From the NCBI GenBank assembly GCA_913058495.1, contig CAJXQC010000004.1, positions 124,001-188,000 on the forward strand: a DNA stretch of 64,000 nt, given 5' to 3'. The translations under genes and the position numbers were made by a program. Within the stretch, counting starts at the first letter, position 1, and each line of letters begins with the position of its first letter. Shown one piece after another: positions 5,827 to 34,356 of this stretch. The notes under the pieces were generated by a model, which saw nothing but the letters and a program-made list of their open reading frames with translations, made no database searches and was not told where the DNA came from. The stretch comes from an uncultured Balneola sp. Lineage in GTDB: Bacteria > Bacteroidota > Rhodothermia > Balneolales > Balneolaceae.

Positions 5827-7983
5827 TTATTTTGCTAGTGTAAAATCAATTTGTCGTTTTTGGGTATTAGTGCTTTCAACTTTTACCTGAATACCATCGC
5901 CTAATTTATATGATCTTCCAGAGGAACGACCTACAAGAGCATGTATTTTTGAGTTGTATACATAATAATCACCTTTCAAATCAGAGACTCTTACCATCCC
6001 TTCACAATGAACATCATTCAGATTTACAAAAATACCTCTTTCAGTAACACCTGTTATTGTGCCCTTAAAGTTTTCGCCTATTTTTGTACTTAAAAATTCC
6101 ACTTGTTTTAATTTTATAGAATCTCTTTCAGCATCCACTGCAACTCTTTCACGACTACTGCAATGTTCGCCGTGTTTTGTGAGTGCTTCAAAATTATAAC
6201 TGGTTGTACCGGAAGAATATTTTTTTAATAGTCTATGAACAATTACATCTGGGTAACGTCTTATAGGACTGGTAAAGTGTGCGTAATGTGGAAATCCTAA
6301 ACCAAAGTGTCCAATATTTGCCGGAGAGTACTCAGCTTTTGCCATCGATCGTAACATTAACCCATTAACTATTGATTCGACCGGAGTATTTTTTACTTGC
6401 TGAAGCAGGTTATTGATCTTTTTAGGGCTCATGTTATCCGTTACTTCAAACTTAATGTTAAACGGAGCTACTTGTTCGGCTACACCAGCTAATTTTTCCT
6501 GATCCGGTTTATCATGAATACGATAGAAAAAGGGAAACAGATTTTTTGACTTCTTCTTTCCCGAATCTTTTCGAAGATTTTCGACGTGCAGTGCAACCGT
6601 CTTATTGGCCATCAACATACATTCTTCAATAAGCCGATGAGCAAATATTCTCTTTTTTATGATTACTTCTATAGGTGTGCCTTTGTCGTCTAGAACAAAT
6701 TTTGGTTCCGGATTATCAAAATCAATCGCTCCTTCCTTGAACCTTTTCTTATATAATGCTTTAGCTAATTTTTCTGCTGTCTTGAGCTCTTTTTTATATT
6801 TATGATTTGCTCCGTCCAGTACTTCCTGAGCTTCTTCATAGCTAAAACGTTGTCTTGAATGAATTGCAGTTTCTTCGATGGAATAATCCACCAAATTGCC
6901 TTTGGAATCAATTTCCATGAAACAACTGTAAGTAAGCTTATCTTCATTTGGACGAAGACTACATACCCCATTACTAAGTTTCTCAGGTAGCATTGGAATC
7001 ACTCTGTCTACCAGGTACACACTGGTTCCCCTGCTGTAAGCTTCTTTATCCAAAATAGTATCAGAGGTTATATAATGACTTACATCAGCTATATGAACTC
7101 CTAGATAATAATTTCCATTTTCAAGTATTTCAATACTTAAAGCATCATCAAAATCTTTAGCATCCGCCGGATCAATGGTAAATACAAAATCTTCCCGCAT
7201 ATCTTTACGACGCTTAAATTCTTCTTCGGGAATTTCTACCGGAATCCTCTCTGCAAAATTTTCCACTTCCTTATCAAAATCAGCTACTAATTCATTTTCA
7301 GCTAAAATTGATAAGATGTTTGCATCATTTGTACCTGATTTTCCTAATATGGAAGTTACTTCTGCTTCAGGTAACGCTTTCGGATGTGTCCAGTTTTTGA
7401 GCTTAAACAGAACTTTATCATCATTATGAGCTCCGTTAACATTGTCCTTTAAAACAAAGAAATTAATATGTGCAGATTTTTGGTCAGGCTCTATTAAATA
7501 AGTTCTGTCTCCGGTTCTTTTGAATGTACCAACATAAAATTCTTTACCTCGCTTTTTAATTTCTACAACCTTTCCTTTAGGCTGCCCACTGTTTCTTTTA
7601 CCTGTTATTTTAACCGAGACAATATCATTTGGTAAACTTAAACCGGTATCATTTCCGGGAATCATTACATCTTCTTCCATCCCTTCTACAATTACATAAC
7701 CGGTCCCTCTTGGGGTCAATTGAATGTATCCTTCAACTAAATTAGAATCTTGTTTATTTATTTTTTTGTGAGATGTTCTTAGCTGAATTTGAGGTCCATT
7801 CTTGCTCAATATTCCTTTTTTATCAAGCTTTCCTATTGCTTTATCAAGTTTCCTGTGCTCTTTTTTGCTATTTATAGCTAAAGCGTTTGCTATTACATCT
7901 CTTTGTAATGAGTTGTTAGGACTGCTTTTTACTAGATCTATTATTATTTGTTCTAAACTACTTTCTCGTGAGCTTCTACTCAT
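5827..7983 (-). CDS. rnr: Ribonuclease R
   Basis: This 718-residue 3'-5' exoribonuclease degrades structured RNA. From the N-terminus it has a winged-helix-like segment, cold-shock/OB domains (about 85-230) and the RNB catalytic core. The core carries the acidic cluster TIDPADAKDFDDALSIE, whose aspartates bind the catalytic Mg2+, and a late FTSPIRRYPDVIVHR. A C-terminal S1 domain contains KGTITGVTERGIFVNL. The length fits RNase R better than RNase II. It lies 12 bases after tamB and 12 before the peptidase fusion, in one transcript. No active-site residue appears to be missing. Confidence 0.96.
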   Translation of the reverse strand: MSRSSRESSLEQIIIDLVKSSPNNSLQRDVIANALAINSKKEHRKLDKAIGKLDKKGILSKNGPQIQLRTSHKKINKQDSNLVEGYIQLTPRGTGYVIVEGMEEDVMIPGNDTGLSLPNDIVSVKITGKRNSGQPKGKVVEIKKRGKEFYVGTFKRTGDRTYLIEPDQKSAHINFFVLKDNVNGAHNDDKVLFKLKNWTHPKALPEAEVTSILGKSGTNDANILSILAENELVADFDKEVENFAERIPVEIPEEEFKRRKDMREDFVFTIDPADAKDFDDALSIEILENGNYYLGVHIADVSHYITSDTILDKEAYSRGTSVYLVDRVIPMLPEKLSNGVCSLRPNEDKLTYSCFMEIDSKGNLVDYSIEETAIHSRQRFSYEEAQEVLDGANHKYKKELKTAEKLAKALYKKRFKEGAIDFDNPEPKFVLDDKGTPIEVIIKKRIFAHRLIEECMLMANKTVALHVENLRKDSGKKKSKNLFPFFYRIHDKPDQEKLAGVAEQVAPFNIKFEVTDNMSPKKINNLLQQVKNTPVESIVNGLMLRSMAKAEYSPANIGHFGLGFPHYAHFTSPIRRYPDVIVHRLLKKYSSGTTSYNFEALTKHGEHCSSRERVAVDAERDSIKLKQVEFLSTKIGENFKGTITGVTERGIFVNLNDVHCEGMVRVSDLKGDYYVYNSKIHALVGRSSGRSYKLGDGIQVKVESTNTQKRQIDFTLAK

Positions 7984-7995
7984 TAATTCCTTTTA

Positions 7996-10900
7996 TTAAC
8001 TGGGATTTTCATTCCCATCGTTTTCTTCTTCTTTATCTTTATTTCCGAATAATTTTCTAAATGGACTTCCAAGTCTTCTGAAAAAGTCCTGCCATGTATT
8101 AAAACTTACTTCCGCTTCTACTCCTACCCCGTTTATATCCTGGCCTTGTTGCGTTTCTTGCCCATTAGACAAATTACTGAATGTAGGATCTTGCCGGTGA
8201 AAAGCGGTAACAGAAAATGTTCTGTTAATTTTATATGTAGCCCCTAAATCTCCGATGTTTGATTGAGCTCCGGTTAGTTGTCCATCTCTGCGAATAATAA
8301 TTCTGTCATTATAAAGTCTTAGTGCTAACCCTAAATCTACCTGATTGTAGGTATTTAAATTAAAATCCACATCAAAACTACTTATATCACTACTTAATAA
8401 CGAGTTAATTTGATTAGAAAGCAAAGGACTTATTAATTGGTTCGATATCAGTGGATTAAGAACAGCTCCACTCCCTGTAAAGTTCTCTGTTAGTGATGAA
8501 GCTCCATTAACTGATGTTGCCGGTATAAAATCTCCCATTAACAGAAAGCTTGTGGCCTGGAGTAGTTTTTCATCCTCGTTTCTGTTTAACGAAGCTATCT
8601 GCGTTGATAATGTAGAATTTTGCCTCGCTTCAAATGTATTGGGTAATCTAAAATAGAAATTGTTTTGAATGCTTGAGAGAGAGCCACTTATGTTAAGTAC
8701 TAAATCTACAGGAGTTCGCTGGATATTACTAGGATCTGTTAAATCCAGGTCTGATCTGGCAGTTGTTAATGTTCTGATATTAGGTCTTCCTGAATATACT
8801 GCATTAATATTAATTCGTGCATTTCCGGGCTCACCTTCCCAGATTATACTTCCGCCGGGTTCAAGATTAAATCTTCTAGTAAATATATCGCCACTAACCA
8901 ATTGATAATTTCCATCGCTGATATCAAACCTTCCAAAAATACTCAGATCCTCATCTTCAAGACGAATTCTCAACCTTCCTGTACCATTTGCGGTTATAAC
9001 ATCTCCGGTTATCTGATCAAAAATAAGCTTGACTGTCATCGGGTTATTAGCAATGAACTGAAGATCCAGTGTAAACCTTTCTGCAAAAGTAAGCTCCGAA
9101 AGATCGATCTGCTCATTTACAGAAAATGACGAATTATTTGATGACGTTGTAGAATCAGGGCCGTATTCATCAAAAGATGAAACAAAACGAATAAACTTAT
9201 TGTCTTCATTGAATTCTGTTTCTTCAAGCAACGGAAGCTCTATTTGTGAAAAATCCGAAATTAGCATGGGTTCAATGGTTGTCAAAACAGGACTAACATT
9301 AGTTCCTGAAATGTTTACAACACCGGTTCCGTAAGCTTTACCAAAAAAAGGAACAGTTGGGTCAAAATTATTATTCAGAAACTGGAATTCTTCTGTATCA
9401 ATCCTGATGTCCATATTGTGAACAGGTTGAAAATCATTAAAATTATACCAACCATCTAAAACAGCAAGACCTCCCGATGGGTCTATTAAAAATATATCTT
9501 TAAATACCAGTCCTTCTGCACGTGTAAAAGTAATGGGGCCCTGACCGTAATAATAGGTATCTAAAAATCTCGGTTTCATATAAACTGCGTCATCCGGGCC
9601 TATGTCGTAATCTACTTTGAAATCATAAGTTTCGAGATTTCCCCATACTTCTCCGGTACCTGTAGCTACACCTGCCATTTCTGTAAATACTTTTGGAATC
9701 AGAAAAGGAACTATCCAAAGATCTACAGTATTAAAGTCTAAATTAAAATGATAGAGAGAGTCTACTTTGGGGAATTCTCCGTTTACAGGTGCAAGTACAT
9801 AGCCTGAAAACTCTAAGTTCTGTCCTTCTCTATCATTCCTTTCAAAATATGATGGATAAATAGTAGAATCGGTAGTTACATTAATATTAGTATCAAATCT
9901 ATTCAGATCTTTATTAAACACACTTGATATCTCAAAATCCCCGACCGTTTGATTATTTAGTGAAAATGCACTTAGATTAATCATACCCTCAACAGTTGGT
10001 ATGCGTGTTAATGTCCGTGTTGTAAAAACTCCATTCAAACTGCCACCAAAATCGACTTTCCCGTTTATCAAATCCGAAATCCTGTCCAGCTTAACACCTC
10101 TAAAAAAGTAGTTTACAGAGTCAGTCACAACATCACTAAAAGCGCCTTCAATATTGAACAACTCTTCTCTGTTTTGAAAAGTAAAGTCTCTAAAAATTAG
10201 TCTTTCATTATTTGTGAGAGTCAAAGATGGAGTATCTCTGTTCTCCCATGAATAAATATCCGATCCAAGCTTAAAATTATTTATTTCCGCTACTATTGAT
10301 GTATCTGTTAACAGACCTTTACTATCCAGAACCAGTTTTGCCTCTTCGCCAATTACATCTATAGAATTTGATATTTCTATTGAATCTCGAGCCATATCGA
10401 AATCAAAACTAAAACCTTTGGTATCAAAATATGGAGTATTAAAGCGAACCATTTCAGAGCTTATCAAAAGATTTGAGAATTCTTTTAAGCTCTGGTTATA
10501 TCTAAAACTTCCTGTTAGTTGGGTTCTTATGGAATCAGCTTTAAAATCTTTTATCTCAAATTTTGTATCAAAAAAATCTGCATTAAATAACAAGCGGGTT
10601 GTATCGGCAGTTATGTTCGAGGTTACCCTGGTTGAGGCTGTCATTTCAGGAAATTCAGGAAAATATTGCTTTAAAAGCTCTACATCTTTTAGTTGTGCAG
10701 TTATATTGAAATCCTGATTTTTGAGTTTTTTATCAGATATTAATACAGGTTTGGTAAAAGCTTTGGTAAAGAATTCCTTCTCCAGTCGCTCTTTAAAAAA
10801 ACCGATCCAATAATTTGATAAAGGGAGCAAGTGCGTGACAGTAAAGTTTCCTTCCAAGCTAATATCTGCGGCAGTAGTAGTAACTCTGATTGAACGATTG

Positions 10901-12687
10901 GTTGCAGAAAGGTTAGCAATATCTGCATACAGCAGCTGAGGCTTCAGGGTATCACCATCAGACACTGAAAAAGGTATATTTACATTTAGCACTCCGGTTG
11001 CATCATTGATTGAAGTACCTTCAAAATCAGCACTGTACTCAACATCCATTACAATGTCTGCTAAACTTTCGGATTGGAAAAAATACTGAACACTTAAATT
11101 ATTTCCTGTGCCCTCAAGTTGAATTGACTTTTTTTCTTCCGAAAAATCAATTTTTCCCTCTCCCTCCAATGTCCCGTTTTGAGCTTCTATTAAAAATTTT
11201 GGCGAAATAACCTTATTTCTACCTGTAGCACTTATATCAACTTGTGAAAACGTTGAATCGTTGACTTCCAGATTGAGAGAAGAAAACTCAAATAAATCAA
11301 AACTTGAAAAATCATTATAATCTGATGTTTTAAACTGACCTTTTGAAGTAATATTGGTTGATCTGATAAAATCACCCACTAAATTTCCAATGTTCAGCGA
11401 ATCTGTTTCAAACTGAACATCAAGACTTTTGTTATCAGCAAAGCCCATTTCTCCAAGGAGAGAAATTTTACCTCGTCTGCCCTCACTTAAAAAATTTCCT
11501 TCTGTTCTATTAAGATCGCCTGTCAACCCTGCTGACAACCTCGTATTTGAAATTGCCTGAAGCTGATACTGGTTTACCTCCGGGAAAAAATATTTTACAT
11601 CAGAAGTATCAAGTAACACATCAGAAAAAGTTAAATCATATTGAAAAGGATCTTCTTTATCGAAATTAAATAGTTTACCTGAGGCATTGATAGAAGAGCT
11701 TCCATATTCAACTTTTGTTGAATTCACATTCACATCTTTGATTCCACCTGAAAAATCAGCTTGTACAAATAAAGGGGATTTAAAATCCGGGAGCTCCGGC
11801 AGCAGTGCATTTATACGATCTTCAGATATCGAAAATTCGTCTATATCCAAATCATATTCTGCCTCTCTGAGCTGTTTCACAAAATCCAGTTCAAAAATAT
11901 TTATCCCATCTATTCTCCCGGTAAAATTCACATAGGAATCATTATTGATAAAATTAAATGAGTTGAATTCAAGGAACCTGTTGTCACTGTATATCTGCCC
12001 GAATATCTGACTACGACCTAACTCTATTTCATCAGCAACAAATGACATCCTTTCAATATCCAGAAACCGTTCATCCTGCTTATATTCAAAGAACATAGCG
12101 AGGTCAAGTTCCTTAATTACCAGACTATCTGCATTTGAAGTAAATTGGTTTGGTTTATAAGCATTTCGGATCAATATTTCTCCTTCTGTAATTGTTACGT
12201 TAGGAGCTAATATTTCAAAAAATGGCCTTTTGGTTTCTGTAGTATCAATTTCAGATGACTGTACTTCCTTTTTCTTAAGCGCATACAATAATGAGGTGTC
12301 TGATTCAGGATCGATTAAAATTTCAGGTGATTTTATATTCAATCCTGTAACTACAAATCTCTGTTGAAATAATGCCGGCACATTCAGGTTTGCTGAAATA
12401 CTATCACTTTTAAAAACTGAGGTAATACTTGATGAATCCGGATAAAGGTTTACATCTTTCAACTCAATCCGAAAAGGGATCAAACCATCTAGTTCTCCAA
12501 TTGTAAATACCCCGTTATATTTTTCACTGAAATTAGTTTCAATACGGGTAGCGAGATATGTTTTTGCCGGCTCAAGCTGAATAAGACCAAACACAATTCC
12601 GCCACCAATAACAGCAGTTAAAATAATTACTGCTGTTATTGCCCAGAAAGTGTTCCAAACTCTATGTAGCCATCTTACTACGGGCAC
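7996..12687 (-). CDS. tamB: TamB-like translocation and assembly module protein (DUF490)
   Basis: This 1563-residue AsmA/TamB-superfamily protein has a single N-terminal membrane anchor (about 14-38) and then a very long beta-rich, repetitive periplasmic region. The C-terminal DUF490 part contains the typical LRIRLEDEDLSIFGRFDISDG followed by GGSIIWEGEPGNARININA. In other bacteria TamB spans the periplasm, works with a BamA-family partner in inserting outer-membrane proteins, and has been linked to anterograde lipid transport. The start overlaps the aroB stop by one base. No TamA is adjacent; BamA is 41 kb away in this window. The acidic tail after the DUF490 region is short. Confidence 0.9.
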   Translation of the reverse strand: MPVVRWLHRVWNTFWAITAVIILTAVIGGGIVFGLIQLEPAKTYLATRIETNFSEKYNGVFTIGELDGLIPFRIELKDVNLYPDSSSITSVFKSDSISANLNVPALFQQRFVVTGLNIKSPEILIDPESDTSLLYALKKKEVQSSEIDTTETKRPFFEILAPNVTITEGEILIRNAYKPNQFTSNADSLVIKELDLAMFFEYKQDERFLDIERMSFVADEIELGRSQIFGQIYSDNRFLEFNSFNFINNDSYVNFTGRIDGINIFELDFVKQLREAEYDLDIDEFSISEDRINALLPELPDFKSPLFVQADFSGGIKDVNVNSTKVEYGSSSINASGKLFNFDKEDPFQYDLTFSDVLLDTSDVKYFFPEVNQYQLQAISNTRLSAGLTGDLNRTEGNFLSEGRRGKISLLGEMGFADNKSLDVQFETDSLNIGNLVGDFIRSTNITSKGQFKTSDYNDFSSFDLFEFSSLNLEVNDSTFSQVDISATGRNKVISPKFLIEAQNGTLEGEGKIDFSEEKKSIQLEGTGNNLSVQYFFQSESLADIVMDVEYSADFEGTSINDATGVLNVNIPFSVSDGDTLKPQLLYADIANLSATNRSIRVTTTAADISLEGNFTVTHLLPLSNYWIGFFKERLEKEFFTKAFTKPVLISDKKLKNQDFNITAQLKDVELLKQYFPEFPEMTASTRVTSNITADTTRLLFNADFFDTKFEIKDFKADSIRTQLTGSFRYNQSLKEFSNLLISSEMVRFNTPYFDTKGFSFDFDMARDSIEISNSIDVIGEEAKLVLDSKGLLTDTSIVAEINNFKLGSDIYSWENRDTPSLTLTNNERLIFRDFTFQNREELFNIEGAFSDVVTDSVNYFFRGVKLDRISDLINGKVDFGGSLNGVFTTRTLTRIPTVEGMINLSAFSLNNQTVGDFEISSVFNKDLNRFDTNINVTTDSTIYPSYFERNDREGQNLEFSGYVLAPVNGEFPKVDSLYHFNLDFNTVDLWIVPFLIPKVFTEMAGVATGTGEVWGNLETYDFKVDYDIGPDDAVYMKPRFLDTYYYGQGPITFTRAEGLVFKDIFLIDPSGGLAVLDGWYNFNDFQPVHNMDIRIDTEEFQFLNNNFDPTVPFFGKAYGTGVVNISGTNVSPVLTTIEPMLISDFSQIELPLLEETEFNEDNKFIRFVSSFDEYGPDSTTSSNNSSFSVNEQIDLSELTFAERFTLDLQFIANNPMTVKLIFDQITGDVITANGTGRLRIRLEDEDLSIFGRFDISDGNYQLVSGDIFTRRFNLEPGGSIIWEGEPGNARININAVYSGRPNIRTLTTARSDLDLTDPSNIQRTPVDLVLNISGSLSSIQNNFYFRLPNTFEARQNSTLSTQIASLNRNEDEKLLQATSFLLMGDFIPATSVNGASSLTENFTGSGAVLNPLISNQLISPLLSNQINSLLSSDISSFDVDFNLNTYNQVDLGLALRLYNDRIIIRRDGQLTGAQSNIGDLGATYKINRTFSVTAFHRQDPTFSNLSNGQETQQGQDINGVGVEAEVSFNTWQDFFRRLGSPFRKLFGNKDKEEENDGNENPS

Positions 12688-30633: not shown

Positions 30634-31080
30634 ATGCAAATTGTAAAATTATCAGAACAGAACGTAGCAGCCCTCGCTCATCTCTTTGTTGAGTTGTGGC
30701 CGGAGTGTATTTTTGAAACTGAGCTCGAATACTGCAAACAGATTCTGGAGAAAGAAAATCAGACAGCTTTTTTAGTAAATGAAAAAGGTGAATACATCGC
30801 TTTTGCATACCTATCACTTCGAAATGATTTTGTAGAAGGCGCAACCTCTTATCCTATTGCTTATCTGGAAGGGATTTATGTAAAAGAATCCTACCGAAAA
30901 ACCGGAATAGCTACACAATTGATTCAACGAGCAGAACAATGGGCTAAAGAAAACGGAAGTTCACAACTCGCCTCAGACGTTGAAATAGATAACGAGCAAA
31001 GTATTCAATTTCATAAAAAGTCAGGCTTTCTGGAAGAAAACAGAATTGTTTGTTTTCTCAAAGATCTGAAACCTGATTAA
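30634..31080 (+). CDS. GNAT N-acetyltransferase, aminoglycoside 6'-N-acetyltransferase AAC(6')-I-like
   Basis: This 148-residue GNAT protein keeps the features of AAC(6')-I enzymes: FAYLSLRNDFVEGATSYPIA leading to YLEGIYVKESYRKTGIATQL, which combines the substrate loop with the acetyl-CoA-binding R-x-x-G-I/V-A motif, and later SDVEIDNEQSIQFHKKSGF. Size and motif order fit this subfamily better than RimI. It probably acetylates an amine, and possibly aminoglycosides. It stands alone with no integron, transposon or resistance-cassette sequence around it, so it looks like a resident chromosomal gene. It converges with the EF-G paralogue, overlapping by 4 bases. Confidence 0.78.
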   Translation: MQIVKLSEQNVAALAHLFVELWPECIFETELEYCKQILEKENQTAFLVNEKGEYIAFAYLSLRNDFVEGATSYPIAYLEGIYVKESYRKTGIATQLIQRAEQWAKENGSSQLASDVEIDNEQSIQFHKKSGFLEENRIVCFLKDLKPD

Positions 31081-33203
31081 ACCTCCTCCAGTTCTGCATT
31101 TTCCTTCATTACTCGTTCCTGAACATCAAACGGAACTTGAGCGTAATGAGAAAAATGCCTTTGATAAGTAGCACTGCCTTGTGTCATCGATTTTAAACTT
31201 GTGGAATAATGATCCAGTTCTTCCAAAGGTACGTGCGCTTTTATTTTTTGCAACGCTCCTTCAGCATCCATTCCCTGAACTTGTCCGCGGCGGGTCCCAA
31301 GATCGCTTAATACTTCTCCCATGTAATCCTGAGGGACAATCACTTCAATTTCATAGATAGGCTCCAATAGTTTCGGATTCGCTTTCAAAAAGCCATCCCG
31401 GAAAGCCATTCTTGCTGCTGTTTTAAATGCTGCTTCGTTAGAATCCACAGAATGCATAGAACCATCAAATACAGAAACTCTGATATCCCGGGCACAGCAT
31501 CCGCTCATCGGTCCATTCTGCATTTTTTCCATCACTCCTTTCAGAATTGCCGGCATAAACCGATTATCGATCACACCGCCGACAATGCAATTATTGAATA
31601 CCAGTTTACCTCCCCACGGAAGATCATGTACATCCGTGTTCCGCACTTTCATATCGGGCGGATCAGCCATTCCTTCTTGATAAGGTTCGATCAACAATTC
31701 AACTTCAGCATATTGTCCTGCACCTCCGGATTGCTTTTTATGCTTGTATTTCGATCTTACTTGTGTGGTTATGGATTCACGATAAGGAATTTTTGGGGTT
31801 ATAAACTCAACATCCAACTTGAAACGATTTCTGAGCTGGTGCTCAATTACTCCCAGATGTTCTTCACCCTGTGCATGAATAATGATCTGACGCAATTCCT
31901 GGCTATGTTCAATTATGATAGAAGGATCTTCCCGATGAATTTGATGAAGTGCGTTTCCAAGTTTGTCTTCATCTCCTTCATTGGTAAGCTTTACGGCCGT
32001 TCTGATTGTTGTAGGTGGAAATTCAATTTCTTCCAGAACTATATTATTTCCTTTTTCCGAAAGAGTGTGATTTACTTCCCCATCCTTCAACTTTACAACT
32101 GCACCAATATCTCCGGTTTTGATCTCATTTATGCTGATGCGTTTGTGTCCTTCGGTGAGATAGAGACTGCCAAGCCTAACTGAATTAGAAGTTGAGTTAT
32201 TCATCAGATCCATTCCCGCAACGGAAGATCCACTGTATTGTTTAAAATAGATCAGATCTCCAACATGAGATTCCGAATATGTCTTGAATAAAAACAGCAC
32301 AGGCTTTCCGTCCGGATCCAGTTCAAAGTCGTCTCCATTCTGATTTTTGGGTGCATTTCCTTCCAAAGGATTTGGAGCGATGTCATCCAGAAAACCCATT
32401 ACCCGACCTGTTCCCATATTCCTTGCCGCACACACACAAAACAACGGATGAATCTGTCCTTTTACCAATGAAAGATGTAAACCTTCCTCCATTTGTTCTT
32501 CATCCAGTTCCCCATGTTCGAAGTATATTTCCATTAAGGACTCATCATTTTCTGCGATGATCTCAATCAATTCCTGGTGCAGTTTCTCTGCCTTATCTTT
32601 TAATGAATCAGGGATAGGTAGTTTATCCGGTTTCCCTCCCCCTTCCGGAAATTCGTACATCGTCATTCTGAGTACGTCCACTATTGCGTGAAAGTCACTT
32701 CCTTCACTGTACGGAAACTGTACAACTGTTACTTCCCTTCCAAAATGTTCTTTTGCTTCCTGAACGGTTTGCCAAAAATCAGAACGCTCATTATCCAGTT
32801 TATTGACTACAAAAATCGATGAGACTTCATATTTACGTGCATATTTCCATAATGAATCCGTTCCTACTTCCACTCCGTTTTCAGCATTCAATGTGAAAAT
32901 GGCAGTATCTGCAACTCTCAGCGGACCAACTACTTCACCTACATAATCTGAAGTTCCGGGAGTGTCGATCAGATTAATTTTATGTCCTCTCCAATCCAGA
33001 TTCATAAACGATGAATAAATGGATTTTTCTTTCTCTTTCTCCAATTCATGATAATCGGAGACCGTATTTCCTTCTTCTATGGTTCCTCTTCTGTTAATAG
33101 CTCCGGCTTCAAACAACATAGTTTCGGCTAAGGTTGTTTTTCCGGAGCCGGAATGGCCCAACAACACAACATTTCGAATTCTGGCAGGATCGTATACTTT
33201 CAT
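31077..33203 (-). CDS. Elongation factor G paralogue (EF-G2-like) lacking the catalytic His
   Basis: This 708-residue translational GTPase has the full EF-G domain order. The P-loop GHSGSGKT (16-23) and NKLD (134-137) are intact. The G3 motif reads DTPGTSDYV, so Thr84 replaces the histidine that activates water in EF-G (DTPGHVDF). The switch I sequence EKEKEKSIYSSF also lacks the usual RGITI threonine. The same kind of change is found in the Bacteroides EF-G2 paralogue, reported to support translocation without GTP hydrolysis. HKKQSGGAGQYAEVELLIEP and PWGGKLVFNNCIVGG are subfamily-like. Canonical fusA must be elsewhere. A tetracycline-protection role is less likely. Confidence 0.85.
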   Translation of the reverse strand: MKVYDPARIRNVVLLGHSGSGKTTLAETMLFEAGAINRRGTIEEGNTVSDYHELEKEKEKSIYSSFMNLDWRGHKINLIDTPGTSDYVGEVVGPLRVADTAIFTLNAENGVEVGTDSLWKYARKYEVSSIFVVNKLDNERSDFWQTVQEAKEHFGREVTVVQFPYSEGSDFHAIVDVLRMTMYEFPEGGGKPDKLPIPDSLKDKAEKLHQELIEIIAENDESLMEIYFEHGELDEEQMEEGLHLSLVKGQIHPLFCVCAARNMGTGRVMGFLDDIAPNPLEGNAPKNQNGDDFELDPDGKPVLFLFKTYSESHVGDLIYFKQYSGSSVAGMDLMNNSTSNSVRLGSLYLTEGHKRISINEIKTGDIGAVVKLKDGEVNHTLSEKGNNIVLEEIEFPPTTIRTAVKLTNEGDEDKLGNALHQIHREDPSIIIEHSQELRQIIIHAQGEEHLGVIEHQLRNRFKLDVEFITPKIPYRESITTQVRSKYKHKKQSGGAGQYAEVELLIEPYQEGMADPPDMKVRNTDVHDLPWGGKLVFNNCIVGGVIDNRFMPAILKGVMEKMQNGPMSGCCARDIRVSVFDGSMHSVDSNEAAFKTAARMAFRDGFLKANPKLLEPIYEIEVIVPQDYMGEVLSDLGTRRGQVQGMDAEGALQKIKAHVPLEELDHYSTSLKSMTQGSATYQRHFSHYAQVPFDVQERVMKENAELEEV

Positions 33204-33275
33204 GGTGAACTCCTCAGATTGCTAAGATTTTTGTTTTCTCTTGATGAAAACTTTAAGCGCTTCCTTTTTTTACGC

Positions 33276-33283
33276 TATATTTG
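33276..33283 (+). promoter_or_regulatory. TAnnTTTG-type -7 element upstream of ansA
   Basis: TATATTTG matches the Bacteroidota sigma-70 -7 consensus TAnnTTTG and lies 72 bases before the asparaginase start. No clear TTTG -33 element is placed upstream, so this is only a candidate. Confidence 0.4.
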
Positions 33284-33354
33284 GCAATAATTTTAAGAAC
33301 GTTCGCACTAGTACGGCGAATAGCTAATTTAAACGGCTACGGGAAATAAGCAAG

Positions 33355-34356
33355 ATGAAAAAAATTCTTCTCATACAAACAGGTGGAACCATTGCAATGA
33401 GCGCAAAAGGCGAAGGCGTGGAACTGGATCCTGAAGCTTGGTCTGATTTGCTTATCAAACAGATTCCCGAGTTAGAAGAACTTGCTGAAATTACTACGTA
33501 TCCACTTTTTTTTGAGGACAGCTCTGATCTGAATGCAGAACACTGGGTAAATCTTGCGCAATGCATAGATGTTAATTACGAAAAATATGATGGTTTCGTA
33601 ATCCTGCACGGAACTGATACGATGGCTTATACGGCATCCGCATTGTCTTATTCGTTACAAAATTTAGCCAAACCCGTGATCTTTACGGGAAGTCAGGTTC
33701 CAATGAGTAGCGTGCGAAGTGATGCCCGACGAAATCTCATAAACTCGATAGAAATGGCGACTACTGAATTACAGGAAGTTGGGATCTGCTTCAATGATCA
33801 TGTCTATCGCGGAAACCGTGCCACTAAATTAAGTATAGGTGATTTTGATGCTTTTGGCTCTCCAAATTTAGATCCCATTGCTGAAATTGGTTTAGATATT
33901 GAGCTTCATGTTCCTCCTAAAAAACTGATCCCTGCTTTTGAGAATAACGCAGCCTTTTCAAACGAAATTTTTGTTCTAACTGTCCATCCTTCACTCAGCA
34001 TGAATATTCTCGATTGTTTAGATCTCACCAAATTGAAAGCGATCATTGTCCGAACTTTTGGTAGCGGTAATTTTCCAATGAAAGGAGAATACAATATGAT
34101 CCCATTTTTTGAAAAGTGCAGAGATCACGGGGTAATTGTAGCTATTGTTTCTCAGGCGGATTATGACGCTGTTAATCTGACCAAATATCCTGCAGGACGA
34201 GCGGCGTTAAATGTTGGTGCTGTATCAGGGGGAGATATGACTATGGAGGCAGCTCTTACGAAATTAATGTTTCTTATGGCTCGATCAGATTCAAAGGAAT
34301 ACATTGAATCGCAATTTCAAATACCGATGGCCGGTGAGCTAACTGTTGATAAATAG
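33355..34356 (+). CDS. ansA: Type I (cytoplasmic) L-asparaginase
   Basis: This enzyme hydrolyses asparagine to aspartate and ammonia. The 333 residues start directly with the catalytic-threonine motif LLIQTGGTIAMS and have no signal peptide, which makes it the cytoplasmic type. The second motif VILHGTDTMAYTASALSYS contains the other active-site threonine and aspartate. The length fits type I enzymes. The upstream spacer holds an imperfect inverted repeat (TTCGC/GCGAA at 33302-33320). It is followed by a repeat-bearing spacer before the tryptophan dioxygenase gene. Confidence 0.93.
   Translation: MKKILLIQTGGTIAMSAKGEGVELDPEAWSDLLIKQIPELEELAEITTYPLFFEDSSDLNAEHWVNLAQCIDVNYEKYDGFVILHGTDTMAYTASALSYSLQNLAKPVIFTGSQVPMSSVRSDARRNLINSIEMATTELQEVGICFNDHVYRGNRATKLSIGDFDAFGSPNLDPIAEIGLDIELHVPPKKLIPAFENNAAFSNEIFVLTVHPSLSMNILDCLDLTKLKAIIVRTFGSGNFPMKGEYNMIPFFEKCRDHGVIVAIVSQADYDAVNLTKYPAGRAALNVGAVSGGDMTMEAALTKLMFLMARSDSKEYIESQFQIPMAGELTVDK

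Follow-up and report, generated by a model that had tools for sequence, protein, structure and literature searches.

A predicted Balneola orthologue of Bacteroides EF-G2 with threonine at the switch II histidine position

The EF-G2 gene and its family

The window analysed here, a 64,000-nucleotide stretch of DNA from an uncultured Balneola sp., carries a fusA2-type gene for a paralogue of elongation factor G (EF-G), hereafter the window EF-G2 (Table 1). Its open reading frame (ORF) starts with ATG, is free of internal stops, and is preceded on its 5' side by a ribosome-binding-like GAGGAG at 33210–33215. The Pfam models for the GTP-binding domain (domain I) and for domains III, IV and V scored above their cut-offs and those for domain II below, and an AlphaFold2 (AF2) model reached a mean predicted local distance difference test score (pLDDT) of 88.7. 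By its Pfam domains and its AF2 model, the EF-G paralogue is real and not a chance reading frame.

Table 1. Features of the EF-G2 locus, in window positions (aa, amino acids)
Feature	Position	Strand	Basis
fusA2-type gene, EF-G2 of the EFG II subfamily, 708 aa	31077..33203	-	ORF, NCBIfam, tree, fold
G1 / P-loop GHSGSGKTT, residues 16-24	33132..33158	-	alignment
Switch I G2 stretch KEKSI, residues 58-62, replacing RGITI; Ser61 at the Mg2+ Thr position	33018..33032	-	alignment
Thr84 codon, switch II, at the E. coli EF-G His91 position	32952..32954	-	alignment
G4 NKLD, residues 134-137, intact	32793..32804	-	alignment
Domain IV loop I HKKQSGGAGQ, residues 488-497	31713..31742	-	alignment
Domain IV insertion, 20 aa, residues 508-527, relative to Thermus EF-G	31623..31682	-	alignment, tree
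Domain IV loop II DGSMHSVDSNE, residues 580-590, including translocation His H584	31434..31466	-	alignment
Type I L-asparaginase, divergent neighbour	33355..34356	+	TIGR00519 269 bits, cut-off 260.5; synteny
Intergenic region between EF-G2 and the divergent asparaginase, with GAGGAG and palindrome AAGCGCTT	33204..33354	.	

Among the NCBIfam models, the top score was obtained with NF058620 (EFG2_Bacteroid; 931.4 bits), and the broader NF009381 was passed with 870.5 bits against a cut-off of 583. The best sequence match in the Protein Data Bank (PDB) was 7uvp/8dmf (E 9.5e-207), the EF-G2 of Bacteroides thetaiotaomicron (B. theta), whose sequence, taken from this match, scores 1382.9 bits with NF058620. 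In a fold comparison, too, the AF2 model matched 8dmf best, an entry entitled 'ribosome-bound Bacteroides thetaiotaomicron EF-G2' (E 2.6e-89, TM 0.89, 45% identity). The molecule name of 7uvp, 'Tetracycline resistance protein TetQ', is misleading, the chain being EF-G2 by the title of 8dmf, which has the same sequence, and by its family score.

A tree was built by a quick method without bootstrap from 73 rows that we chose from those at hand, including the canonical FusA of the same genome and leaving out column 84 and the domain IV insert. The window protein fell within Balneolales, inside a 52-row clade shared with Bacteroidia and Bacteroidales EF-G2 (Shimodaira–Hasegawa-like approximate likelihood ratio test support, SH-aLRT, 100). 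Eight rows from the window's class came next outside this clade, followed by EFG II proteins lacking the insert and finally by canonical EF-G (100). The window gene is thus the Balneola orthologue of B. theta EF-G2 (fusA2, BT_2167; 46% identity) and a member of EFG II. An earlier note on this DNA had proposed a homologue of Bacteroides EF-G2 in another lineage; both parts are borne out, the homologue being orthologous by the tree and the host genome (3.4 Mb) being Balneola, with Balneola sp. EhC07 as its best named relative (99% identity).

The hallmark of EFG II is the loss of RGITI with its Ser retained (xxxSx), and the subfamily keeps G1, G3 and G4 and is encoded outside the str operon, according to Margus et al. 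2011 (PMC3150367). The window EF-G2 has KEKSI with Ser61 and retains G1, DxPG and NKxD; its gene is not in the str operon, and the genome has EFG I elsewhere. Balneolales are not named in the passages of Margus et al. used here. The separate canonical fusA (L002, 1456–3594 on contig C10) lies directly after rpsL- and rpsG-like genes, the names (S12 and S7) being our own reading of the two ORFs before it. Its product contains both DTPGHVDF and RGITI and scores 1084.6 bits with TIGR00484 (cut-off 659.4), whereas the window EF-G2 fails this test for canonical EF-G (531.2 bits, Thr84, KEKSI). The presence of a separate fusA had been put forward in the earlier note as a check on its proposal, and this gene provides it; the lack of a canonical fusA, which the note would have taken as a refutation, does not apply.

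Switch residues and the domain IV insert

The nucleotide-binding motifs of the window EF-G2 are intact (G1 GHSGSGKT, DxPG as DTPG, and G4 NKLD). Its G3 motif, IDTPGTSDYVGE, reads DTPGTSDYV where EF-G has DTPGHVDF, and Thr84 aligns with the switch II His of Thermus EF-G and of the genome's own FusA, so that ORF and alignment agree with the earlier note on this replacement. In Thermus EF-G mutants such as T84A, Thr84 is presumably the Thr of DTPG and not this position.

Residues were counted over 132 EFG II rows, later 136 with the addition of L031, L122 and two more Bacteroidales rows. G16, G21, K22 and T23 of G1 and D80, P82, G83 and D86 beside position 84 are unvaried (132/132). The switch II His is found in 0/136 rows (Thr 52, Tyr 48, Ser 19, Leu 9, Phe 5, Ala 2, Pro 1); between its unvaried flanks, position 84 is therefore free of the His constraint throughout the sampled EFG II. 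Thr or Ser occupies it in all 68 Balneolales-type rows and in three of the four Bacteroidales rows, Prevotella having Ala instead, and in 0/64 others. Since the small-hydroxyl state requires two changes on the tree, the Thr/Ser of Balneolales and the Ser of Bacteroidales are of separate origin, their likeness being convergent and not due to descent. A change comparable to that of Bacteroides EF-G2, as earlier claimed, is thus present in the small hydroxyl residue of both proteins and not in its origin. The spread of Tyr over the outer EFG II branches suggests that it was the older state. The residues common to both lineages with a small residue 84 occupy three columns (173, 409 and 479), none of them in G motifs, and no compensating change was evident.

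In switch I, RGITI is replaced by KEKSI. The earlier note had this motif as lost, which is correct for the stretch as a whole, but the Mg2+-coordinating Thr survives in changed form as Ser61; in EFG II this position is Ser in 130/132 rows and Thr in the remaining two.

Relative to Thermus EF-G, the window EF-G2 contains 20 extra residues after E506-P507, within which the AF2 model has an extra strand at 519–527. The insert is exactly 20 aa long in the insert-bearing rows, except in L127 (22) and four Bacteroidales rows (29). It is absent from seven other EFG II proteins of the phylum (L129–L133, L135 and L136) and from the non-Bacteroidota EFG II proteins L137 and L140, a difference from the EFG II of Margus et al. 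On the tree, the insert classes correspond to two changes, one gain and one lengthening, and the 20-aa insert appears to mark the Bacteroidota EF-G2 clade. In the FusA of this genome the same domain IV loop is enlarged too, by 13 residues and in a different way, and GGRGK replaces GGRGQ; enlargement at this place is therefore not unique to EF-G2. Han et al. 2023 (EMBO J) reportedly traced the absence of GTPase activity to a 26-residue region; should this correspond to the domain IV insert, the shorter 20-aa form of Balneola would become the variable of most interest.

The remainder of domain IV is strongly conserved at its tip. K490, Q491, G493, G494, G496 and Q497 of loop I are unvaried in 132/132 EFG II rows, as are the translocation His H584 and the tip residues that make the tRNA–mRNA contacts in canonical EF-G.

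Genomic neighbourhood and distribution

A divergent asparaginase gene adjoins EF-G2 in 53 of 55 Balneolales loci (L007–L062 minus L057, which had too little upstream sequence), the two without it being L033 and L034. It was found in 0/22 other loci with enough upstream sequence, one of these loci, L063, being placed with Balneolales by the tree. Such pairing points to control from a common region and perhaps to a connection with amino-acid use. The remaining neighbours tested are conserved within Balneola only (3 to 5 of 80 loci). Among the neighbours is an AAC(6') group E aminoglycoside acetyltransferase-like gene at 30634–31080 on the forward strand (NF043067 166 bits, cut-off 140), which is convergent with EF-G2, overlaps it by 4 bases, and occurs in 5/80 loci. 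Elsewhere in the window, a 1563-aa frame at 7996–12687 on the reverse strand, for which Pfam gave no hit at E 1e-8, adjoins an RNase R-like gene (5827–7983).

The palindrome at 33255–33262 in the intergenic region was present in 6/50 non-redundant Balneolales intergenic regions, where mononucleotide shuffling gave a mean of 0.1. We do not claim it as an operator; its extended form occurs 9 times in the genome and the reversed control 6 times. For Bacteroides EF-G2, control by Cur/BT4338 in carbon starvation has been shown (PMC6989115). Two loose Cur-like patterns had no match in the 50 Balneolales EF-G2/asparaginase intergenic regions, so that this search gives no ground for transferring the control to Balneola EF-G2.

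With the EFG2 model, 198 genomes of the phylum were searched, and full-length matches of at least 727 bits were counted as EF-G2; the raw tally of 198/198 takes in canonical EF-G and is not an EF-G2 count. By this threshold, an orthologue is present in 49/49 genomes of the window's class and in 25/149 other genomes of the phylum. The ratio of nonsynonymous to synonymous substitution rates (dN/dS) was 0.045 in the single estimable pair, dS being saturated in the other four of five; from this one pair, EF-G2 is under strong purifying selection. Among the papers searched, none paired 'elongation factor G' with 'Balneola'. The EFG II family, its RGITI loss and translocation without hydrolysis are already published, and Balneola EF-G2 adds another member; its fixed-length insert and the convergence at residue 84 add modestly to what was known.

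GTP hydrolysis and the proposed function

Thermus thermophilus EF-G-2 (1wdt, 665 aa, DAPGYGDF) and M. smegmatis EF-G2 (9k0z, DTPGYADF, with an EFG II-type G2, QQRSV) resemble the window EF-G2 in belonging to EFG II type and lacking the switch II His, and both differ from it in having Tyr at position 84. The former hydrolyses GTP, whereas the latter is described as lacking ribosome-dependent GTPase activity (PMC3150367). Because Tyr goes with both outcomes, the switch II residue alone predicts neither the presence nor the loss of GTPase activity. GTP hydrolysis by E. coli EF-G on the ribosome is reported at 202 per second for the wild type, 28 for H91A and 174 for H91Q (Koripella et al. 2015, PMC4532990); Pi release was hit harder than hydrolysis in the H91 mutants, and the same paper notes that complete loss had been reported earlier for H91A. 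Given the H91A rate, loss of the His by itself need not abolish hydrolysis. The earlier note had treated Thr84 as a special change implying hydrolysis-free translocation. This does not hold, since the His is absent from 136/136 EFG II rows, Tyr accompanies both outcomes, and H91A is active.

We consider it probable, on the strength of sequence comparison, that Balneola EF-G2 is an accessory GTP-binding translocase beside FusA, an orthologue of Bacteroides EF-G2 whose hydrolysis is weak or absent. Such a protein would bind GTP, occupy the A site as EF-G does, and bring about tRNA–mRNA translocation, with binding and domain IV doing most of the work. Ribosome-stimulated GTP hydrolysis would be weak or absent because the EFG II subfamily as a whole has lost both the RGITI stretch and the switch II His, and slow release would make the protein a slow auxiliary translocase. 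B. theta EF-G2, which shares with it xxxSx in G2, a small hydroxyl residue for the switch II His, the site of the domain IV insert and a position as second EF-G beside fusA, reportedly translocates without GTP hydrolysis (as cited in PMC12775393 and PMC10294740). The two differ in that residue 84 is Ser there and Thr in Balneola, with separate origins; Cur/BT4338 control is shown for B. theta (PMC6989115), and no Cur-like site was found in Balneola with the two loose patterns. By analogy with Bacteroides, Balneola EF-G2 might be used in starvation.

Several observations weigh against this assignment. The NF058620 score is 69 bits under the curated cut-off of 1000, for which reason we file the window protein as an EFG II orthologue of EF-G2 and not as a member of the narrow NCBI model. 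G4 is NKLD in Balneola and NQLD in the four Bacteroidales EF-G2 proteins examined, and the insert is 9 residues shorter (20 against 29 aa), so that what is reported for Bacteroides might not apply to Balneola. E. coli H91A, moreover, still hydrolyses GTP in a ribosome-stimulated manner, just 7-fold slower (PMC4532990). The window EF-G2 might accordingly be GTPase-competent like Thermus EF-G-2, with the sarcin-ricin loop and backbone contacts activating hydrolysis without the His and Thr84 mainly altering the rate of Pi release. The activity of the Thermus protein (PMC3150367) and the normal hydrolysis of H91Q, in which Pi release is over 20-fold slower (PMC4532990), speak for this, and Ser61 and NKLD should preserve Mg2+ and guanine binding. 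We nevertheless regard it as unlikely, since ribosome-dependent GTPase activity is reportedly lacking both in B. theta EF-G2, the nearest characterised relative in sequence and in the tree, and in the more distant M. smegmatis EF-G2.

A ribosome-bound factor with a role other than elongation, for instance in hibernation, in rescue or, like mitochondrial EF-G2, in recycling, seems more doubtful still. Recycling and translocation are divided between EFG paralogues in Borrelia (PMC3150367) and mitochondria (PMC8203779), and M. smegmatis EF-G2 has been solved on the ribosome (9k0z, 'EF-G2 bound 70S complex of M. smegmatis'). However, with 7l20 at E 5.1e-70, mitochondrial EF-G2 matches far less well than B. 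theta EF-G2 (E 9.5e-207), the domain IV tip residues are unvaried, and the B. theta orthologue reportedly translocates. The 'TetQ' label on the top PDB match, 7uvp, would suggest a tetracycline ribosomal-protection protein, an identity that we reject as scarcely credible: the window EF-G2 scores far below the family cut-offs (274.7 of 775 with NF012153; 134.6 of 1425 with NF012154, TetQ), B. theta EF-G2 itself reaches 139.1 of 1425 with NF012154, and the PDB entry title is EF-G2.

It is possible, if far from assured, that the EF-G2 proteins of Balneolales (Thr/Ser) and Bacteroidales (Ser/Ala) are converging on hydrolysis-free translocases, with a small switch II residue where their relatives mostly have the bulky Tyr, plus the shared domain IV insert. 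If so, the proteins of Balneola (20-aa insert, NKLD, Thr), Bacteroides (29-aa, NQLD, Ser) and Chitinophagaceae-like lineages (20-aa, Tyr) would separate the causes of GTPase loss.

The locus places Bacteroides EF-G2, the one well-studied hydrolysis-free translocase, in a wide family that extends to every searched genome of the window's class. Across this family, the switch II residue appears free to vary, and a missing His is no ground for predicting GTPase loss. The orthologues may serve as a natural panel for asking which of three changes removes the GTPase activity: that at residue 84, that in G4 or the insert in domain IV.
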